Of a DNA stretch of 21,620 nucleotides, positions 6,678 through 20,980 are shown piece after piece (position 1 is the stretch's first letter; each line of letters starts with the position of its first letter). Position numbers and translations under genes: made by a program. The notes below the pieces were generated by a model that saw only the letters and a list, made by a program, of their open reading frames with translations, had not been told where the DNA came from and did not search any database. Source of the stretch: a virus; IMG/VR virus record IMGVR_UViG_3300021964_007591, positions 1 to 21,620 of that record, one strand, 5' to 3'.

Positions 6678-7658
6678 TTAAGTGCCAAGCCCTGCTGAAA
6701 ATACTGTTCTTTCACCCGTACTAAGATTTTCTTCTATTTTTTCTCTACTAGAGATTATTTTACCACATTGTTGACGACAAATAGGAAAACTACGATCATA
6801 CCCTTTTAAATAAGTCCTTAACTTATCCCAGTATTGATAAGAAATTATTTTTTCTAAAGAAACTTTTGTAGCATCAAATAGTTCTTCAAAAGTGTCAAGA
6901 TAAAAAAATCTATCTTGCTCTTTGTCAAAATAATGAGCGCCTGTCCAACAACATCTAAAAACTAATCCATTAGGGGCTATATACCATTTACCCCAGGAAT
7001 CCCAAGAACAATTAATTTCTTTTGGTAGTTTTGATAAATCACTTTTCTTTTTTAGATGTACATAATCTCCAGATTTTGGTGCTGCAAAATCACGACCAGT
7101 TTTAACAGTAGAAAAAGAATGAAAACCCTCTGAGATAGCTAGTTCTTTAGCCTTTTCTACTTGATGCTTATTATGTTCAAAAACTATATATTTCCAGTGT
7201 ACTTGTGGTCTATTAGTTGCTATAACAGAACGAGCATTGTTAAATACATTTTCAAACTTTGTATTAATTCTATAAATAGAGTGTGTATCTTCTAGTCCGT
7301 CTAAATCAAAATTTATAATATCTTCTGTGGTTAAAATATTTCCTACGTCAGTCCAATAGTCTGACCCATGTATACCACCGTTAGTATGAATATTTAAACG
7401 TGTTCCATATTTCTTAACATATGTAATAATTTCACGAAACTCTTTGTTCATTATAGAGTCTCCGAAATTACCATTTAAAACAATCCAGTCAAGTTGTTCT
7501 AAAAACTCTGGATAAAAGACTTGCTTAAATCTATCTAACGTATAGGTATACTGCTCATCGTTTAAGTCTATTCTTAGAGGTTTTAAACGATGACATGCAG
7601 GACACTTTGCATTACATCTAAAAGTTAGTTCAGTAGTTATTTGTTTATATTTTCGCAT
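6678..7658 (-). CDS. Radical SAM enzyme with SPASM-like C-terminal cysteines
   Basis: A 326-residue protein. Near the N-terminus FRCNAKCPACHR holds the CxxxCxxC that binds the SAM-cleaving [4Fe-4S] cluster (C15, C19, C22). LNGNFGDSIMN (61-71) takes the place of the GGEP-type SAM-binding loop. HTNGG (91-95) and FDLDG (117-121) are usual later strands of the partial TIM barrel. The C-terminal region has further cysteines (C217, C236, C237, C294, C298) in PNGLVFRCCW and FPICRQQCGK, a SPASM/twitch-type auxiliary cluster pattern. Such enzymes usually modify peptides or proteins. AGGGATAT before the ATG gives a good start 10 bases after the fibre gene's stop. The substrate is unknown; the neighbouring fibre or the small proteins are candidates. 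Confidence 0.88.
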   Translation of the reverse strand: MRKYKQITTELTFRCNAKCPACHRLKPLRIDLNDEQYTYTLDRFKQVFYPEFLEQLDWIVLNGNFGDSIMNKEFREIITYVKKYGTRLNIHTNGGIHGSDYWTDVGNILTTEDIINFDLDGLEDTHSIYRINTKFENVFNNARSVIATNRPQVHWKYIVFEHNKHQVEKAKELAISEGFHSFSTVKTGRDFAAPKSGDYVHLKKKSDLSKLPKEINCSWDSWGKWYIAPNGLVFRCCWTGAHYFDKEQDRFFYLDTFEELFDATKVSLEKIISYQYWDKLRTYLKGYDRSFPICRQQCGKIISSREKIEENLSTGERTVFSAGLGT

Positions 7659-11734: not shown

Positions 11735-14700
11735 TTAAACTCCTGTAACCGCAAAGTCTACTTCTGTGTAGATACTGCTAGGTCCTATTATGTCGTGCGA
11801 TGATACGCCGTTTGAAAAATACACTGAAATATTAGCGCCTTCTAATCCTCTATCTAATACAATGCACTGAGGCTGAGCTAACTGATTAGAGCTAGCACTT
11901 ATTGTAGTTGCTGTAACTCTAGGAATCTGTACATATCCCATTTGTGCGTAATCTATAAAAGTTACTGCAGTGGTTATAGTCACTGTTTGAGTAAAAAGTC
12001 TTTCATCGAGAGCAATTCGATACCTAAATTTATCTAAAATAAGCTCTGCTTGTTGAGGATTACTATTATTTACTTTATACCTAAATTGAAAATATCTAAA
12101 GGTTCTAGCGCCGGTAACAAAGTTTACATACCCATCACTATTTGCTACAGCAGTAAAAGCACTAACATTTACGTTGCCATTGGCATAGTATGGGTTTGAA
12201 GAAGCTACTCTAAATTCAGTATTTGTAGTTACTATACCAGAAGTGCCATAAAAAGTAGCTTCTGGTGACAAATCTAACCATTGAGTTAAGTTTACCAGTT
12301 TATAGGAGGTTCCTGCAACTGTTAAATTTGAAAATCCATTACTTCCTGTAGATCGACCGTTAGCATACCAGGAGTCTCCTAATACTATAGCACTACCATT
12401 AGATACTCCAGATATAAGAGACAATACGTTAGCATTTGCGGTATCTCCATCATAATTTCCAGTAGTTATAATACCATAAACATTAGCATAATAACTACCA
12501 GATGTACCACTAACTAGAGTTTTATTTTTGCTGTCATAGCTTACAGTAGCGGCAGAAGCGTTAGAGTATCCTAAGATATTACCTATTCCAAGTGCTCCAG
12601 AAAAATCAATGTCTCGTAAAGATCCAGCAGGGGCAGACTCTGTAACAGCGTCTTCTCCTACCTGTTCAGAATAGTCTAGCCAAGTAGATTTTAATGCTTG
12701 CTCTCCTATTAGTTCTAGCTGTATAGAAGCAGTTAAAGTACTTCCTAAATCTCTTATTTGTGTCTGGTATACCGCAGTAGATAAAGCTCGTAAATCAGAA
12801 GGAGATCCTCCAATTACGCTCCACCCAGAGGATGCTCCGTTAGCATTATCAACAGAACTAGAATCAAAAAGACTATCTGCTTTAGAGTAAGATAGACCTC
12901 CTGTGTTTGATTCATAGTAAGAAGCATAGGCAGTTTCACCATAGTTAGTATTAGTAAAGCCTGGTACGTAAGCTCCTGATGGATCATCTTCTGAATATGC
13001 AGCAAATACTTTATTATAAGTTGTTGATATTGATGTGTAGTTAGAAGTGACTACATCTTCACTTAAATTACCACTAGTGTCTCTAGTTCTAACTAGATAA
13101 GTATAAGGACCATATTGATCAATATCAATTACAACGCGGTTAGTACGAGCGTCTACTTTTGCTAAGTCATTTGCACTTGCCCATGCATCCAATAGAGCTG
13201 CTTGAGAGGATTCTGTTGTAGAGGCTATTCTTTTTATTTGTACTTCCAAAAGATCTAGGTCATAGTTATCGCCTGTAGTGATGTCCTGTACATACTGCCA
13301 AATAAATACTAAAGATTCTCCTGATTGTCCTACTGCAAAATTAATAACATTTAAAGGTTTAGCAGCCTTACCAACAATAGACTGTTCTTTTACAATAGTA
13401 GAGCCTCTAAGATTTTTATTTAGAGGAGTTACTCTAACTACTACGGAATTTGGGTTTCCTGATAACCCTCTTTCAATATTATCTATTTTAAATCTTATTT
13501 TACCATCGGTATCTGTACCAATAGCAGGAACTTTAATAGTGTTGAAAGAGGTTAGGTCACCGCCATCAGAATTAATTTTATAAGATATTTCATAGTCTGT
13601 AACTTCTTGACCTGTGATACTATCAAAAGATATAAGTACTCTAGTAGCTACACCTAACGTAGAGTCTTTGTATAAACTCTCAGATATCTCAAGATTTGAT
13701 ACCGCCTTAATTGGTAAAGGTCTGACCACTACTTGTTTAGTTACAAATGGACTTCTTCTACCAAATTTATTTATGTTTCTAGCTTTAACTGCATGAACCC
13801 CTGTTTCTACACGTTTTATAATTCTACTATTTGTACTCTCGTCTATAGATATGGGAATAAAATTATCAAGAGGAACGTTAACTGTATACACTGAATTATT
13901 AGCCAAATTAAGCATTCCTGGAAAAACGGTAGAATTGTAATCAAAAGTAAATGTTTTAGCTGCTACATTTAAGTTGCCTACTGTTCCAATAGGATCAGGA
14001 GTTACATTTATTGCATAAGCCTGTGCTACGTTAGATTTTATATTATCACTTAAAATAACTCTGTAAATACCATTAGCTGTTAATGCTGCATCATACGAAG
14101 GAGCAGTAGTATCATAAGTAGAGTCTGAAATACCGTATACGTTACCCGCATTCCAAGCTATATTATCTCCTAATTCAATTAAAGGAACAGTGTATACATT
14201 AGAAACAACTCTTACATCTAAATTAGCTTCAGATGTAGGTAGAGTAGTTAAATTAATAGATACTTGAGAATTAGCTAGGTTATCTAACCCTTTTTCTAAA
14301 TTAAAATTAGTATATGCTTCTCCATTTATATATACTTCTGTAAAATTAGAGTGTCTTACAGATACTCCTAAAGGTTGCTTGAAAATATGTGAGTTAATAA
14401 GGTTTGTTGTAGTAGCGGTGTTTGTTCTTACTATTTCTTGATAGTTACCTGTAACATATAAAGCATTATTAGCAAAATATCTATGATCAATAATTTGGTT
14501 TAATGAAATATAAAAAGGTGGATCAGGTAATAAAGTATATAAAGTATTTGTGCCTGAGTGGTCATTATCAATTTTAATAGTTTGAGTGCCAGAATCCCAT
14601 GCTACAACATTGGCACTATAGTTAGTAATTCTAGTGTCAGAACCTATAAATCCAAGTAATCCTGCTGCATCTCCAGTTCCGCTTTCCTCTTTTTGATTTA

Positions 14701-17700
14701 TAGGAAGAGTTACTTTATCAGTGCCTTTTACTCCTCCAAAATCAAACGTATCGTTAACATCTAATACATGTATTGAATCACCAAAGTTTACATCTATTAA
14801 GTTATCAACACCTACAACAGTTAAAGAAATATTACCATTAGCTTTATCAGGGGCTTCATCAATTTGATCTGTTGAAGTTACTAGTAAGCGGGAACGGCCA
14901 AATTCTGTAGTAAAACCGTTCTTACCATAAATAATTATTTTCTCCCCCTCAGTAACATCACTTATAGCATCCAAATGCATAGTAATAATATCTCTAGAAA
15001 TAGAAGGAGTAGCATTACTTACTAATTTTAAATCAGTTGTGGGTCTAGCCCTATAGTATTCTGTAACAAATTCATTAGAATACCCAGTTCTATCAGTAAA
15101 AGAACTAATTTCAATATCAGTGTAAACAGAACCGTCTAAATCTCTTTTAGGGATAGATCTAAGAGAAAAGTCAGGAGCAGGGGGCTTCAGTAGTGGATTA
15201 AATAAGTCAGTAAAAACTAAAGGCTGATAATCAATTAGTGTATCTGCGTCAACATACACATTAGAAACATACTCTACTGCTTCTATTTTTATAATTTCTT
15301 CTTTACTTCTATCTAAGGCTGATACTTTAAATAATTTATCTGTAAGAGATGTATAAATATTAGTAGGGTCATTAACCTCTCCTAATGTCCATAGGTCAAA
15401 TCTACTTGGCAAATGGTTTGACCCCCAACCGCCTGAAAAAACTTCAAAAGTTTTAGAACCTACATCATATTTTCTAATAGCCTCTACTCTAACATACTCT
15501 GTACCTCCAGAGACATTAGCTGTATTACTTAGAGAATAACTAGTATTACTAATTAAATAAGTATCAACTAATCCTGATTTAGTACTAGCTACTCTTACCG
15601 CTAAAGGCTTGGTATTTGCAGTAAATACAGTAGAAGTAATAGAAGGAACGCCAATATGTTCAAGATAAATTGAGGTATTAGAAATACCGTCTATACTATC
15701 TTTTTGGATAAGACCTCCATATCCCCAAGCTACTGAAGCGGCTCTTTGAGAGACAGAAATAATTGATCCAGGTCTTAATTCTGATGCTTCAATACCAGTA
15801 TCAAAAGATATTTTTCTTTTAGAGTATTTTTTATCTGCTATTAAATATTGTGCTAGTCTTATAGCTTGGCTTTTTCTATTAATACCTTCTAATTGAAGAG
15901 ATACTACATTTTCTATGCCGTTTCGCTCATTTAAAGCACGAGGGTCATCTATTCTTAAAGTTTCTCTTCTATTATGATTAGTAACATCTATATAAGAAAC
16001 ATCTACTCCAGTAACTAAATCCTCTTCATTCATTCCAGAAATCAGTAATGAATCTCTTTTTATATTAGTTTCATTAAATATAGCTGATGGCATATCATCT
16101 GGTTTATCTTGATGTAAATAAATTTTACCGCCAGTATAGTATAAAATAGATCTAAAAGTTAAAGTTAGTATTGTGATAAGGTCAATTACTTGTTTTTGAT
16201 CTGCTATGACAGAATCTAAAATAAATCTTCTTTCTTTAATAGAAGTTCCTAAGTCATATCCTATTAAGGATTCCTTTACCGATGTTTTTGTGTTTCTTGG
16301 TTTATTTCTAAAACTACCATCTGCTTTAGCATCTACCCCATAAAATTTACCATTAGTGACATCACAAGCATCATTATATACCGCTGCATCATAAAAAGAA
16401 AATTTATCAATATTACCTTCAGGAATTCCTAATCCATAAGTTGTGTTTGTTAATAAATCGTATATATGCCACACGGGATTTTGTGTCCAAGAATAAACAA
16501 ATTGACCATCCCATAAACCCTCATATATAGTAGGATTAGTATCGTTTAACACAGCAGTCCCTGTTTTTTGTTGACGATATCCGTAATCAGCTCTATCTAC
16601 ATCATTAATTTCTATTTGTCTCCAATCTATATCACCATTTTCTAAAATAGGTTGGTTATAATTAGCAGGAACTTTAACTATTAATCCTTTTATTAAATTA
16701 CTTATAGCAGGCATTGATCCTTTATGCTCAGCAAAGGCTTTAATTGCATATCCTACAGTAGCAGTTCTTGTATACGCGATAGGTTGATCTATGATCTCTG
16801 TCCATCCTTGAAAAGTTAAACTTTCTTGCACTTTGGAGGAAGAGTTATCGCTGGAGGTTTTTTCTATAGTAAATCTATATCCAGCATCAGATAATTTATC
16901 TGCGGGTATTTGTACAAATAGGTCAAAAGAAAAAGCTACGTTTGTTTTACCAGAAATTGTTCTTTCTTGAGTTCCTAATTCTTCAACACCAGTTGAATCG
17001 TATATTGTAGCTTTAACAGTTACAGAGTGTCCTAAAATATTACCATCATTATCTTGTTTTTGAAGACCACCAATAATAAAGTAAAATTTTAAAGCAGTTG
17101 CAGAAGTTGGGCTTGTATTTTGTTTATCAACAGCAGATCGTGGAACACCAGAGGCATTACCCTTTTTAAGCTCTACTGCAGAAGATAGTCTCTGAGGTAA
17201 AAAGGTATAATCTCCGAATAAAGGAAGAGGACTTTGAGTTAGAGTACCTGTATTAGATAATACATAAAATTTCTCTGAATCAATTTGTTGATCAGAGTCT
17301 AATAAGTCATCAATAAAACCTTCGTTAAATTCTATATCAATAGGACCATTAGGATTAATTCTGTATACAGGACCCTCACTTAACCCAAGGGTTAAAAACA
17401 TTATATCAGTAGAAAATAAATTATTAGGGTCTTCTCGTCCACCACCGCCACCACTTTTGCCGCCACCGCCGCCATTATGCACCTTAATGCCATTAGCAAT
17501 ATAAGAATGATAATGAGATACCTTAAAGTTATAAACTTCGTCAGTTTTTAGAAACTCAATAGAAAAAATCTCAGATAATTCATTATTATCTGTTAATAAT
17601 TTATCGCCTATGTTAAAATCTTTTAGCTCTTGATAGTCTCCGTCTTCCTTTAAAACCCAGTGATTAGGAGTTATATCTAAATACCCATACTCATGGGTTA

Positions 17701-17926
17701 CTCGATAAATTTCATCTACAGGATGATAAAATGTCTCAGTTACGGAAGAAAGAATTAACTCACCTATCTCATCAAATGCCCATACCTTATCTCCTACTTC
17801 AATATCTGAAATAGGTTTTTGATAGCTATCACACGCAATAAGGGTGTCTGCAGAAAAGCAACCTCCACCGCCGCCTCCGCCTTCAATTAAAGGTACCGCT
17901 GTATCATCAATATAGATAATTGTCAT
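11735..17926 (-). CDS. Giant tail-tip J-like host-specificity protein with an N-terminal Hint domain (2063 aa)
   Basis: A 2063-residue protein like lambda J, the central tail-tip protein that contacts the host. Residues 1-22 are a leader ending in Gly7, 23-151 a Hint (intein-like) domain, and 152-164 a second Gly-rich linker. The J body follows: FLTLGLSEGPVYRINPNGPI aligns with the 'ISEGPIEG' N-terminal region of lambda J. NPVWHIYDLLTNTTYGLGIP (about 490) is the characteristic J segment. Fibronectin-III-like beta repeats probably fill the middle (for example around residues 1400-1600), and the C-terminal 400 residues are Ser/Asn-rich adhesin. No frameshift or stop interrupts it. It lies 17 bases after the I-like gene with only a weak ribosome site. 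Function as tail-tip hub and adhesin is confident. Processing by the Hint domain is inferred. Confidence 0.92.
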   Translation of the reverse strand: MTIIYIDDTAVPLIEGGGGGGGCFSADTLIACDSYQKPISDIEVGDKVWAFDEIGELILSSVTETFYHPVDEIYRVTHEYGYLDITPNHWVLKEDGDYQELKDFNIGDKLLTDNNELSEIFSIEFLKTDEVYNFKVSHYHSYIANGIKVHNGGGGGKSGGGGGREDPNNLFSTDIMFLTLGLSEGPVYRINPNGPIDIEFNEGFIDDLLDSDQQIDSEKFYVLSNTGTLTQSPLPLFGDYTFLPQRLSSAVELKKGNASGVPRSAVDKQNTSPTSATALKFYFIIGGLQKQDNDGNILGHSVTVKATIYDSTGVEELGTQERTISGKTNVAFSFDLFVQIPADKLSDAGYRFTIEKTSSDNSSSKVQESLTFQGWTEIIDQPIAYTRTATVGYAIKAFAEHKGSMPAISNLIKGLIVKVPANYNQPILENGDIDWRQIEINDVDRADYGYRQQKTGTAVLNDTNPTIYEGLWDGQFVYSWTQNPVWHIYDLLTNTTYGLGIPEGNIDKFSFYDAAVYNDACDVTNGKFYGVDAKADGSFRNKPRNTKTSVKESLIGYDLGTSIKERRFILDSVIADQKQVIDLITILTLTFRSILYYTGGKIYLHQDKPDDMPSAIFNETNIKRDSLLISGMNEEDLVTGVDVSYIDVTNHNRRETLRIDDPRALNERNGIENVVSLQLEGINRKSQAIRLAQYLIADKKYSKRKISFDTGIEASELRPGSIISVSQRAASVAWGYGGLIQKDSIDGISNTSIYLEHIGVPSITSTVFTANTKPLAVRVASTKSGLVDTYLISNTSYSLSNTANVSGGTEYVRVEAIRKYDVGSKTFEVFSGGWGSNHLPSRFDLWTLGEVNDPTNIYTSLTDKLFKVSALDRSKEEIIKIEAVEYVSNVYVDADTLIDYQPLVFTDLFNPLLKPPAPDFSLRSIPKRDLDGSVYTDIEISSFTDRTGYSNEFVTEYYRARPTTDLKLVSNATPSISRDIITMHLDAISDVTEGEKIIIYGKNGFTTEFGRSRLLVTSTDQIDEAPDKANGNISLTVVGVDNLIDVNFGDSIHVLDVNDTFDFGGVKGTDKVTLPINQKEESGTGDAAGLLGFIGSDTRITNYSANVVAWDSGTQTIKIDNDHSGTNTLYTLLPDPPFYISLNQIIDHRYFANNALYVTGNYQEIVRTNTATTTNLINSHIFKQPLGVSVRHSNFTEVYINGEAYTNFNLEKGLDNLANSQVSINLTTLPTSEANLDVRVVSNVYTVPLIELGDNIAWNAGNVYGISDSTYDTTAPSYDAALTANGIYRVILSDNIKSNVAQAYAINVTPDPIGTVGNLNVAAKTFTFDYNSTVFPGMLNLANNSVYTVNVPLDNFIPISIDESTNSRIIKRVETGVHAVKARNINKFGRRSPFVTKQVVVRPLPIKAVSNLEISESLYKDSTLGVATRVLISFDSITGQEVTDYEISYKINSDGGDLTSFNTIKVPAIGTDTDGKIRFKIDNIERGLSGNPNSVVVRVTPLNKNLRGSTIVKEQSIVGKAAKPLNVINFAVGQSGESLVFIWQYVQDITTGDNYDLDLLEVQIKRIASTTESSQAALLDAWASANDLAKVDARTNRVVIDIDQYGPYTYLVRTRDTSGNLSEDVVTSNYTSISTTYNKVFAAYSEDDPSGAYVPGFTNTNYGETAYASYYESNTGGLSYSKADSLFDSSSVDNANGASSGWSVIGGSPSDLRALSTAVYQTQIRDLGSTLTASIQLELIGEQALKSTWLDYSEQVGEDAVTESAPAGSLRDIDFSGALGIGNILGYSNASAATVSYDSKNKTLVSGTSGSYYANVYGIITTGNYDGDTANANVLSLISGVSNGSAIVLGDSWYANGRSTGSNGFSNLTVAGTSYKLVNLTQWLDLSPEATFYGTSGIVTTNTEFRVASSNPYYANGNVNVSAFTAVANSDGYVNFVTGARTFRYFQFRYKVNNSNPQQAELILDKFRYRIALDERLFTQTVTITTAVTFIDYAQMGYVQIPRVTATTISASSNQLAQPQCIVLDRGLEGANISVYFSNGVSSHDIIGPSSIYTEVDFAVTGV
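17474..17860 (-). other. Hint / intein-like self-processing domain inside the J gene
   Basis: Residues 23-151 of J. Block A is CFSADTLIA with the nucleophile Cys23. VGDKVWAFDE (44-53) is the usual second strand. Block B is DITPNHWVL with the TxxH signature T86-P-N-H89. The end is SYIANGIKVHN, giving the penultimate His150 and terminal Asn151. At 129 residues it has no room for a homing endonuclease. It is flanked by Gly7 and Gly5KSGly5. The residue after Asn151 is Gly, not Cys, Ser or Thr, so canonical protein splicing is not expected. N-terminal thioester formation and Asn cyclisation (cleavage) remain possible. This is the pattern of bacterial-intein-like or autoprocessing Hint domains. Confidence 0.93.
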
Positions 17927-17943: not shown

Positions 17944-18648
17944 TTAACCAGTTCTAAGAATTTCGTTAGATTTCGAATAGAATAAGTCTCTTACATAAAT
18001 AGTATCAGATACTCCATGACTCATCGTTTCTACATGCCCACTAAGCATTTGCCCTGCAACTCTAGGCATACCATAAACAATAGGTATTTTAGCATTAGGA
18101 TCTGTGGTGTTTTCTAGTGCATCAAACATATCATTATTTCTTCTTTGTTGTTCATCTGCGCTAGCTCTATTAGTTGTTTTAGGAGGTGACTGCAACGCTT
18201 GCATCAGCCCTGATATCGCCATCGAAATACCCATTTTTATAATAAAAGCCTCTACTCCTACTGCAGTAGCCGTTCCTCCTATGGCACTAGCAATTCCAGG
18301 AGCTACATAGGGTGCAATAACTATTACCGCTATTGCTATTAAAATCATTAAAAATCCGCCCTTTTTACCTCCAGAACCCCCAATAACTGGAACTAAAGTA
18401 AATTCTTCACCTTTAATTTTATTAAGCTCAAATTCTTGTTTAGTAATGCATTTTCCACTAGAGTTAATAAGAGTTAAATTTTCTTTAGATAAACTTCCAT
18501 TTAAGATTTGATTAATATATTTTCGTAATTTGGGAAATAGTACTACAAGAGCATCTTTAATATCAGAAAGCTTATTAACATCTATTTGATGAGAGGTAAC
18601 TCCAGTATAAGAAACTAATACTGGATGAAAATTTATAGTTACTAACAT
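17944..18648 (-). CDS. Lambda I-like tail-tip assembly protein with membrane-active segment (234 aa)
   Basis: Matches lambda TipI in size, place and layout. An N-terminal beta-grasp part (MLVTINFHPVLVSYTGVTSH to EEFTLVPVIGGSGG, 1-94) is followed by a Gly-rich hinge, then a hydrophobic stretch (about 98-150, GGFLMILIAIAVIVIAPYVA onward). A hydrophilic C-terminus contains KIPIVYGMPRVAGQMLSGHV, the usual 'IPxxYGxxRVGG' element of this family. In lambda-like phages it is needed for tail-tip assembly and its hydrophobic part may enter the envelope. It overlaps the JAMM gene by seven bases and precedes J by 17 bases, as expected for K-I-J order. AAGGAAAG precedes the ATG. Confidence 0.9.
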   Translation of the reverse strand: MLVTINFHPVLVSYTGVTSHQIDVNKLSDIKDALVVLFPKLRKYINQILNGSLSKENLTLINSSGKCITKQEFELNKIKGEEFTLVPVIGGSGGKKGGFLMILIAIAVIVIAPYVAPGIASAIGGTATAVGVEAFIIKMGISMAISGLMQALQSPPKTTNRASADEQQRRNNDMFDALENTTDPNAKIPIVYGMPRVAGQMLSGHVETMSHGVSDTIYVRDLFYSKSNEILRTG

Positions 18649-19013
18649 TCTAAACTTTCCTTTGTAAAATTTCTAAATCGAAGATAGTTAAGTTCGTCTA
18701 GCCAATACTCATAAAAAGTATCATTATGACTTCCTACAACGAATTTATATTGAGAAAAAATAGCAGAATCCTTGTCTGCCTCACTAGGTAAATCATCATG
18801 ATACTTTGTATGGCTATGAAAAATACCCCAACAATCATTTCCATGTTTTAATAAGGCTATAGGATCTAGAACAAATGTTTCTTTAGGGAGGGAACTTATA
18901 TTATCACAAGGTACATAATCAAAATCTTTAGTAATAATTCCACAGCATTCTACTTCTGGATTTTTTAACATATGATTTTTAAATCTATCAATTAAGCTTT
19001 CATACCTATCCAT
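18642..19013 (-). CDS. JAMM/MPN metallopeptidase, N-terminal half of a split lambda K (123 aa)
   Basis: A 123-residue stand-alone JAMM (Mov34/MPN/PAD-1) domain, a zinc isopeptidase fold. Catalytic Glu is E22 in VECCGI. The zinc motif is H66-S-H68, then S77 and D80 in FHSHTKYHDDLPSEADKDSA. This has eight residues between the second His and Ser where the usual JAMM spacing is seven. Lambda K fuses this domain to NlpC/P60. Here they are separate genes with NlpC/P60 first. The ATG overlaps the preceding gene by 22 bases, with GGGGATAA just before it. The probable job is peptidase or assembly activity at the tail tip. Confidence 0.88.
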   Translation of the reverse strand: MDRYESLIDRFKNHMLKNPEVECCGIITKDFDYVPCDNISSLPKETFVLDPIALLKHGNDCWGIFHSHTKYHDDLPSEADKDSAIFSQYKFVVGSHNDTFYEYWLDELNYLRFRNFTKESLEC

Positions 19014-19423
19014 CTATTTATCCCCATCGTATATTGTTTATAGTAGTTTCCGTATACCGCTATATGCGACTTATGATTTTGTAATATATGTAGTATTTTA
19101 CTATTTCCTATATATAAACCACAATGATTAGTAATTGTAGAAGAACCAATAGTCATAGTTATAACATCAAATTCTTTAGGACTATTAACTAACTGCCATC
19201 CATAATCTTTAGAAGATGCTTTTTTAATGCTGTCTTCATGAATTTGCTGATACCAGTACTCGTCTACTATATTACACCAGTCTCTAGTAGTATAAGGTAT
19301 TTCTATTTCAAGTTCTTGTTTATAAATATACTTAACTAAATTAAAACAATCTATTCCAGTATTAGGGTCTAATCCTAAATGTTTAAAAGGAAGCCCTACG
19401 TATTTATCCCATTCCACCGCCAT
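18992..19423 (-). CDS. NlpC/P60 peptidase, second of a tandem pair (143 aa)
   Basis: A 143-residue NlpC/P60 cysteine peptidase, the family that cuts D-glutamyl-diaminopimelate links in peptidoglycan and in lambda-like tails forms the C-terminal half of K. The catalytic set is visible: Cys26 in GIDCFNLV, His100 in TNHCGLYIG, and a third polar residue His112 in ILHILQNHKS. I prefer ATG 19423 to an in-frame TTG at 19447. It then begins MAVEWDKYVGLPFKH, a normal family start, and has the same length as its neighbour. It overlaps the upstream paralogue by 28 bases. Probable role: local opening of the cell wall during DNA injection. Confidence 0.88.
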   Translation of the reverse strand: MAVEWDKYVGLPFKHLGLDPNTGIDCFNLVKYIYKQELEIEIPYTTRDWCNIVDEYWYQQIHEDSIKKASSKDYGWQLVNSPKEFDVITMTIGSSTITNHCGLYIGNSKILHILQNHKSHIAVYGNYYKQYTMGINRWIGMKA

Positions 19424-19827
19424 ATACTTGCTATTTGATCTCTCCAATCTTGATTTAATACCTCAATTAAAGAACTTTTTCCTTCCGGTAAGTGAATAAA
19501 TCTATTAGCCTCTATATATAAACCAAAATGAGTTGGTATTAAACGACCTGATTTAAATATTATTACATCATATTCTTGCAACTCTGTCAAGTAAACTTTT
19601 ATAGCAACAGTAGTTGCCCAATCTTCAAGTGTCTGAACGGATAAGCGCTTCATCCAACCTCTTCCATCTTTTGGCTTACCACCTGGAAGACCTAAAGGTT
19701 CCCACAAACTTTCAAAAACATTAGAATTAAGCTCATTTTTATAGATGGAATCTATAAGCGTAATACAGTTGTTTTCTAAGTAATTATGCTTAATTCCTAT
19801 ATATTTAATATATTTTGATGCTATCAT
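19396..19827 (-). CDS. NlpC/P60-like peptidase, first of a tandem pair (143 aa)
   Basis: A 143-residue paralogue of the next gene. The Cys is C21 in ENNCITLIDS, His is H100 in PTHFGLYIE, and the third residue is H112 in RFIHLPEGKSS. The His100 to His112 spacing is the same as in its neighbour. Elsewhere sequence identity is low, so the duplication is old. The family aspartate/glycine before Cys (GxDC) is replaced by ENNC, so activity may differ. The ATG is 22 bases inside the end of the radical SAM gene, and no clear ribosome site precedes it, suggesting coupled translation. Its presence beside the radical SAM gene may be significant. Confidence 0.8.
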   Translation of the reverse strand: MIASKYIKYIGIKHNYLENNCITLIDSIYKNELNSNVFESLWEPLGLPGGKPKDGRGWMKRLSVQTLEDWATTVAIKVYLTELQEYDVIIFKSGRLIPTHFGLYIEANRFIHLPEGKSSLIEVLNQDWRDQIASIWRWNGINT

Positions 19828-20980
19828 ACCAATCAGCTAATTGAGGAACTACAGCAGTAAAATTTTCATTCCTACTTCTATCTAATAAACTTATATTTTT
19901 TTTAAACGTTTTCTGAAGTATTTCAGCATCAGGATTTTCTCCCATCATATATCTTAACCAATCAGATATATGATTTATCTCATAAACTGTTAACTTATGC
20001 TTATTTTCTTTTATAAATTGTTTATAGAAACTTAAAATCTTTTGTTTTTCTTCTTTAGGCAGTATTTGTAAAGATATAGAAGGAGGAGTAACTAAAGTAG
20101 TACCAAATAAAGAAATACTTTTTTTCTTAGCCCATAAAAGTAAATCTGGCATAGAGTATATTGTAAAAATAGAAACCACGGAACTTATAGTTGTTATATA
20201 AGGCAACATTCTATCTACATTACTTTCAAAATCTTTCCAAATTAGTTCTTTTCTAACATACTCACAAACATCTTTGTAACCGTCACAACTAACCCATAGT
20301 TTTATTTCTTTAAAATGATTCCATAAATCTACTAATTTATAATTTTTAAAATTTAATATAGATAAATTAGTATTATATTGTAAAGTTATATCTGTTTTAT
20401 TTTTACTAATTAGATATTCTAAAATTTTATAGTGTTGTTCTAATACTAAAGGCTCTCCTCCAGCAAAATATATAACTTCTAAATTAGAATAAATTAAATC
20501 TAGTCCTTCCCAAAAAACTTTTGTATCCCAATACTCTAGCTTTTTTCCCTCAATATTAAAAAGTAGTTTTGCTTCTTTAATCCAAGAAGTACTAGCATAA
20601 CTTCCACAAGTTCTACATCTAAAATTACAAGTATTGCCTAGTCTAAAATCTATATAAACTGGAAGGGGAGGGGTGAGAGTTTCTTGAAGGTATTCTTTAT
20701 GCTTCCAAAATTTGTTAGCGTTATTCTTTGGATTTTCATAAACACCAAGCTCTTCTTTTCTGAAACATGCATTATAGCATTGAGGAGGGATTTTATCATC
20801 TAGAAAAGTTTGGCGTAATGACTTATACTTTTCTCCGTGCCAAACATCAAGTATTGTTTGCTGACTAGTTCCTAAAGAGTATTGGTCATCAAAAGTATTT
20901 GAAAAACAACAAGCTTTGTATTGACCTTTCATATTACCATGAAGATGAATCCAAGGAAGTATACAACCTTTTATTGCCAT
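19805..20980 (-). CDS. Twitch-domain radical SAM enzyme (391 aa)
   Basis: A 391-residue protein. The N-terminal part (about 1-90) has cysteines C6, C24, C25, C68 and C72 in the GCILPWIHLH and YKACCF surroundings, resembling a SPASM/twitch auxiliary [Fe-S] domain placed in front. The radical SAM core follows with CNFRCRTC (C118, C122, C125), FAGGEPLVL (GGEP 174-177) and later VSCDGYK (about 233-239). Similar twitch radical SAM proteins are known in marine phages, with no proven substrate. The ATG overlaps the stop of the tail-tip L gene as TAATG. It lies between L, itself predicted to bind an Fe-S cluster, and the peptidase genes, so a protein substrate in the tail tip is a reasonable idea. 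The second radical SAM gene at 6678 is a different family. Confidence 0.88.
   Translation of the reverse strand: MAIKGCILPWIHLHGNMKGQYKACCFSNTFDDQYSLGTSQQTILDVWHGEKYKSLRQTFLDDKIPPQCYNACFRKEELGVYENPKNNANKFWKHKEYLQETLTPPLPVYIDFRLGNTCNFRCRTCGSYASTSWIKEAKLLFNIEGKKLEYWDTKVFWEGLDLIYSNLEVIYFAGGEPLVLEQHYKILEYLISKNKTDITLQYNTNLSILNFKNYKLVDLWNHFKEIKLWVSCDGYKDVCEYVRKELIWKDFESNVDRMLPYITTISSVVSIFTIYSMPDLLLWAKKKSISLFGTTLVTPPSISLQILPKEEKQKILSFYKQFIKENKHKLTVYEINHISDWLRYMMGENPDAEILQKTFKKNISLLDRSRNENFTAVVPQLADWYDSIKIY

Follow-up and report, generated by a model that had tools for sequence, protein, structure and literature searches.

A Hint domain at the start of a tail-tip protein

The window analyzed here, a virus record taken at its full length of 21,620 bases, carries a J gene, a 2063-residue open reading frame on the minus strand (17926..11735). 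Upstream of J lie genes with matches to L, to a split K (JAB plus NlpC/P60) and to I. Gene I, on the minus strand (17944..18648), encodes a tail assembly protein (phrog_32, 1.9e-25), and a JAB peptidase (18642..19013, minus strand; Prok-JAB, 4e-9) and an NlpC/P60 peptidase (18992..19447, minus strand; NLPC_P60, 5e-13) each represent a portion of a gpK equivalent. This equivalent is in pieces, one JAB and two NlpC/P60 reading frames at 18642-19827 (minus strand). Outside the Hint domain described below, the protein is a J of lambda type: the body (11735..17437, minus strand, stop codon included) belongs to the lambda tip-attachment protein J family (phrog_31, 5e-83; Phage-tail_3, FNIII-A_GpJ), and the NCBIfam model lambda_TipJ covers residues 156-424.

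In the tail-tip module, L and the K-like peptidase genes are separated by a SPASM/radical-SAM gene (19805-20980, minus strand). We considered this gene as a partner of the Hint and rejected it, because Hint-less phages have a radical-SAM gene too; its relatives occurred in 21 of the 36 contigs searched, both Hint-bearing and Hint-less. Another reading frame (6678-7658, minus strand) contains a radical-SAM-like Cys motif, ELTFRCNAKCPAC, and gave no Pfam radical-SAM match at an E-value of 0.01.

J opens with a native N-terminal segment, hereafter the leader, which comprises residues 1-22 (MTIIYIDDTAVPLIEGGGGGGG; 17861..17926, minus strand), includes the motif VPxIxG and ends in a run of Gly (residues 16-22). 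It is followed by a complete Hint domain of 129 residues, Cys23 to Asn151 (17474..17860, minus strand), with poly-Gly on both sides and without a homing endonuclease insert. Cys23 (17858..17860, minus strand) is Hint residue 1 and the predicted thioester nucleophile; block B is TPNH at residues 86-89 (17660..17671, minus strand), block F contributes His140, and His150-Asn151 of block G (17474..17479, minus strand) forms the predicted C-terminal cleavage site, after which the protein continues GGGGGKSGGGGGREDPNN. The linker on this C-terminal side, GGGGGKSGGGGG (residues 152-163; 17438..17473, minus strand), places Gly at +1. An earlier note, made from the DNA alone, had described a complete Hint with these residues and coordinates at the N-terminus of J, and the reading frame, Pfam, NCBIfam and an AlphaFold model bear it out.

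The domain matched the Pfam families Hint (1.3e-8), Intein_splicing (2.4e-8) and PT-HINT (3.1e-8), as well as NCBIfam intein_Cterm (4e-5). The AlphaFold model, with pLDDT mostly 82-95, aligned with inteins and BIL domains at Z ~20-21 over ~130 residues, and its top Foldseek match was BIL2 of Tetrahymena. Because BIL domains and inteins are tied by structural Z, it is the sequence profile that tells them apart: a profile of 34 members matched the BIL domain 2lwy best among PDB entries (6e-20), ahead of BIL2 (7e-17) and the gp41-1 intein (6e-14). Together with the fold, the N-terminal Cys, the TxxH of block B and the C-terminal HN place the domain in the Hint superfamily. The domain in J is very probably an active autoprocessing element of BIL type. 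Chance or an assembly artefact as the source of the Hint itself was rejected, as the Hint recurs in many independent contigs.

Conservation and inheritance of the Hint

We used both the Hint and the J body to scan contigs, taking the best 80 matches per scan from roughly 350 J relatives; the scans returned 269 loci, from which 111 distinct J N-termini were extracted. Three J-body alignment scans used patterns outside the Hint, so these scans, which yielded many of the Hint-bearing alleles, are not biased toward intact Hints. The earlier note had proposed a search for the domain in related phages, and among at least 111 distinct J N-termini we found it at the same site in 62, the other 49 being without it. 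No decayed Hint was present among the 62 Hint-bearing alleles drawn from these best 80 matches per scan, and the 49 Hint-less J, all of which we read, had short, complete N-termini instead of decayed Hints.

Among 51 distinct Hint sequences (minimum identity 24%, median 40%), 10 of the 129 columns are invariant. Five of these are canonical catalytic positions: Cys1, three residues of TxNH (T, N and H) and the final Asn (hypergeometric P ~2e-5, with the seven canonical columns chosen by the analyst). Homologs with a mutated Cys1 or last Asn, which if functional would by the earlier note have pointed to a purely structural insertion, were absent from these 51, and both Cys codons occur at residue 1 within the family. 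Once the last scan was added, there were 84 distinct combinations of Hint plus flanks, with at least 81 distinct Hint sequences. The penultimate residue was His in 72 combinations and Ser in 12, the -1 residue was Gly in 83 and Ser in one, and +1 was Lys in 65 and Gly in 19, with Cys, Ser or Thr at +1 in 0 of the 84. Gly after HN, as read in the J of the window, is thus not universal. Because the last scan and the tabulation of 84 take TxNH and an [HS]N end as given, the unbiased statement on those residues rests on the sets of 62 alleles and 51 Hints. One Hint clade (L065-L078, L088, L103 and L118) ends in Ser-Asn and keeps the other catalytic residues.

By a counting method, dN/dS was 0.21 for the Hint and 0.18 for the J body, values that are rough given this method and the near saturation of some pairs; for the leader of Hint bearers it was ~0.22. 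Purifying selection acts on both the Hint and the leader.

All of the Hint-bearing J came from uncultured viral contigs. In cultured phages we found no Hint in J, either by similarity, where the relatives listed are annotated as helicase, methylase, portal, terminase or hypothetical, or in the J starts that were read. Pattern scans of bacterial genomes, with Hint plus J and with the J body, returned no relative that would link the family to a prophage or host. Two changes suffice to explain where the Hint is present on the J-body tree (shuffled mean 35.7), and Hint and J distances are correlated (Mantel r 0.78), indicating that the Hint has long been kept and is not a fast homing element. Other phages also carry this domain at the start of a lambda-type J (L299, L302, L308, L310, L336-L339 and L341), and in one case the BIL-type Hint lies in a Gly-rich protein with a match to the GP38 tail-fibre adhesin (L349:3001-3462; Ser at -1, Lys at +1).

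One contig, L006, shares its backbone with L013 at 95-98% DNA identity. Its Hint (L006:1524-1995) is 94% identical to that of L005/L010 and 72% identical to that of its sister, and the switch points fall at nucleotides ~61-69 and ~444-472 of J, at the Hint edges and in Gly-coding DNA. It is possible that the Hint was exchanged here as a nearly exact module between J genes that are ~70% identical elsewhere, although L006 is a single 4.6-kb contig and may be a chimeric assembly.

The native J start and the processing of J

A VPxIxG-like leader motif was found in 58 of 59 Hint-bearing J and in 49 of 49 Hint-less J, the latter keeping an N-terminal ..VPxIxG[A/S]KGG... One Hint-less J starts MSTKSFVKHSNLLVPDIRGAKGGKGGGGSEPREDPNSLFSTD, and one Hint-bearing J reads ..VPSIFGSKG, then the Hint, then KGGGKSGSQGGKEDPNNLFSTD. 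Shorter starts, again without a Hint, occur in the cultured phages eiAU (MQRQLFYIKGAKGGGGDAHTP..), Scapp (MLNSIYGAKGGGGSP..) and HmeY (MSAAEWIEGAGGGGKGGGG..), and a further start in cultured phages is ..YIKGAKGGGGDAHTPVEQPDS. We conclude that the Hint sits within the native, Gly/Lys-rich start of J, and that the leader is not the special pro-segment for which it had been taken. Lambda J itself begins MGKGSSKGHTPREAKDN. Asn cyclization would indeed, as previously claimed, leave a J with a Gly/Lys-rich start; the claimed likeness of that start to the N-terminus of lambda J (MGKGSSKGHTPREAKDNLKS) is real but modest.

The leader is as constrained with the Hint as without it: the ratio of leader dN to J-body dN was 1.13 (0.86-1.48) in Hint bearers and 1.30 (0.97-1.66) in Hint-less J, computed on nearest pairs chosen greedily rather than with a full phylogenetic model. 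This suggests that the leader meets the same fate in both, most simply retention on J. The predicted structure of the leader is a low-confidence hairpin in either case. The native linker of Hint-less J is 18.1 +/- 1.4 residues long; right of the Hint it is 18.9 +/- 1.7, and left and right parts together make 23.4 +/- 2.1, so that a spliced linker would be ~5 residues longer than the native one. These lengths are consistent with cutting, or with an insertion in which an xKGG piece was duplicated, and they fit cleavage as well as or better than rejoining. The Hint of L302 and L308 has another leader-like motif downstream of it (..FPVAGSGGGG and ..YPEVKGAGGG), so that two leader-like copies flank it.

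We propose, giving it about an even chance, that the BIL-type domain removes itself post-translationally and that ligation of the leader to J is the main outcome. Cys23 would take the Gly22 carbonyl as a thioester, and Asn151 would cyclize, releasing the N-terminus of the linker behind it, which begins with Gly here and with Lys in most relatives. The new amine, or the side chain of Lys in copies with Lys at +1, would then attack the thioester and join the leader to J. Such an attack on the thioester by the released N-terminal amine (aminolysis) was reportedly proposed by Dassa et al. in 2004. Joining would resemble the nucleophile-free splicing of BIL domains, some simple cleavage occurring as a by-product, and the mature J would start much like that of phages without a Hint. 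In copies with Lys at +1, side-chain attack would possibly give an isopeptide-branched N-terminus. That many phages mature J by splicing without a +1 nucleophile, the Gly thioester being resolved by the amine of the next Gly or Lys, is a broader and more tentative proposal, somewhat short of an even chance. Both the activity of the Hint in the phage and the prevalence of ligation over cleavage are inferred.

The alternative nearest to this proposal, and close to what the earlier note had favored, is that the Hint only cleaves, C-terminally and perhaps N-terminally too, as a removable N-terminal module, so that J, deprived of its leader, begins at the Gly/Lys linker as in lambda. We consider this possible, though we lean against it. 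The missing +1 nucleophile (84 of 84) is in its favor, and BIL domains, which lack that nucleophile, are described as yielding mostly cleaved products (PMC7664689). The linker right of the Hint is already of full native length, and the Gly/Lys-rich part directly starts lambda J, which implies that the leader is dispensable for J; the second leader motif downstream of the Hint in L302 and L308 points the same way. Except for the count of 84, these observations also count against ligation. Speaking against cleavage alone is a leader that keeps its VPxIxG motif and is equally constrained in Hint bearers and in Hint-less J; this equality favors excision and rejoining, as do the leader motif of the 49 Hint-less J and the J starts of cultured phages. 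Asn cyclization alone, the route given in the earlier note, would have no use for Cys1, which is nevertheless invariant. That note's statement that splicing should fail with Gly at +1 was too strong, since BIL domains are able to ligate even where no nucleophile stands at +1, to judge from the title of a reference in PMC7664689. With this precedent and that of a lysine acceptor among the closest PDB relatives, which are BIL domains, and with invariant catalytic residues under selection, ligation is the outcome that we prefer. We found nothing in support of the suggestion that the domain is a timer for J, though a delay before J is processed is possible.

Two further explanations are far less probable. 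The Gly thioester at Cys1 might be passed to an amine of another molecule, such as another J chain, gpI or a host or virion lysine, much as Tetrahymena BIL2 hands on the ubiquitin-like domain next to it; attachment of the leader to another molecule was also the alternative named in the earlier note. Gly at -1 in 83 of 84 combinations would suit such conjugation, and BIL2, the second-best PDB relative, splices by linking to a lysine amine through an isopeptide bond (PMC8616854); moreover, the tail protein family that includes gene I is ubiquitin-like and is partnered by JAB in lambdoid phages (PMC1779556), and a JAB gene is present here. Against this, the cargo would be a short leader that lacks its own fold, and we hold conjugation to be improbable. 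Least probable of all is that the Hint is an inactive structural insertion or the relic of a selfish mini-intein. Such a relic would agree with the lack of a homing endonuclease and with inheritance mostly together with J, but hardly with catalytic residues that are invariant down to 24% identity, a dN/dS of 0.21 and the lack of any decayed copy among those seen.

Relation to known Hint domains

In the open-access literature we found no report of a Hint or BIL domain in J, and a BIL-type domain there is apparently unreported so far. Work on BIL domains has dealt with bacterial proteins and one ciliate locus, and no clear natural role for ligation without a +1 nucleophile has come out of it. 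Here a large natural family (81 distinct sequences, with Lys or Gly at +1) sits in a well-understood structural protein for which Hint-less alleles exist, which makes it testable whether BILs ligate in nature, via which amine and what for. If true, splicing of J without a +1 nucleophile would show BIL ligation put to natural use in building a virion, and small domains with Gly/Lys ends are candidate tools for peptide ligation.

The closest known relative by profile is the A-type Clostridium thermocellum BIL (2lwy), at 29-30% identity and an rmsd of 1.6-1.7 over ~132 residues. Both it and the J Hint have Cys1, an HN end and no +1 nucleophile, a feature of the BIL family, and the J Hint shares the intein-like motifs of A-type BILs; the clade of this J ends in HN throughout, and one other clade in SN. 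Known BILs, however, are reported from nonconserved bacterial proteins, where they lie in hypervariable regions (PMC7765530), whereas the phage domain occupies a fixed motif at the N-terminus of a conserved structural protein, with Hint-less alleles and with +1 restricted to Lys or Gly. Location tells where such domains have turned up and not what chemistry they perform; because of the difference, we call the domain BIL-type, as distinct from a confirmed A-type BIL. BIL2 of Tetrahymena BUBL1 (6y75, 6tmm), top in Foldseek and second by profile, uses a lysine amine as acceptor, and most phage copies have Lys at +1; unlike BIL2, the phage Hint is preceded not by a ubiquitin-like domain, whose C-terminal Gly a BUBL-type BIL activates, but by a short leader, ~22 residues long in this J, and the copy here has Gly at +1. 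Mini-inteins (gp41-1, NpuDnaB and SspDnaB) have the same fold (Z 20-21) and blocks A, B, F and G, likewise without an endonuclease, and as for class 1 inteins there are alleles without the insert at the same site (62 with, 49 without). The phage copies differ from them in having no Cys, Ser or Thr at +1, which is a defining feature of class 1 inteins, in lying outside an enzyme active site and in a more distant profile. Finally, the PT-HINT domains of polymorphic toxins (PF07591) share a ..VHN end, and their Pfam model matched 34 of 34 scanned members; in place of their C-terminal toxin module, the phage Hint, at the N-terminus of a tail-tip protein, has a lambda-type J downstream.
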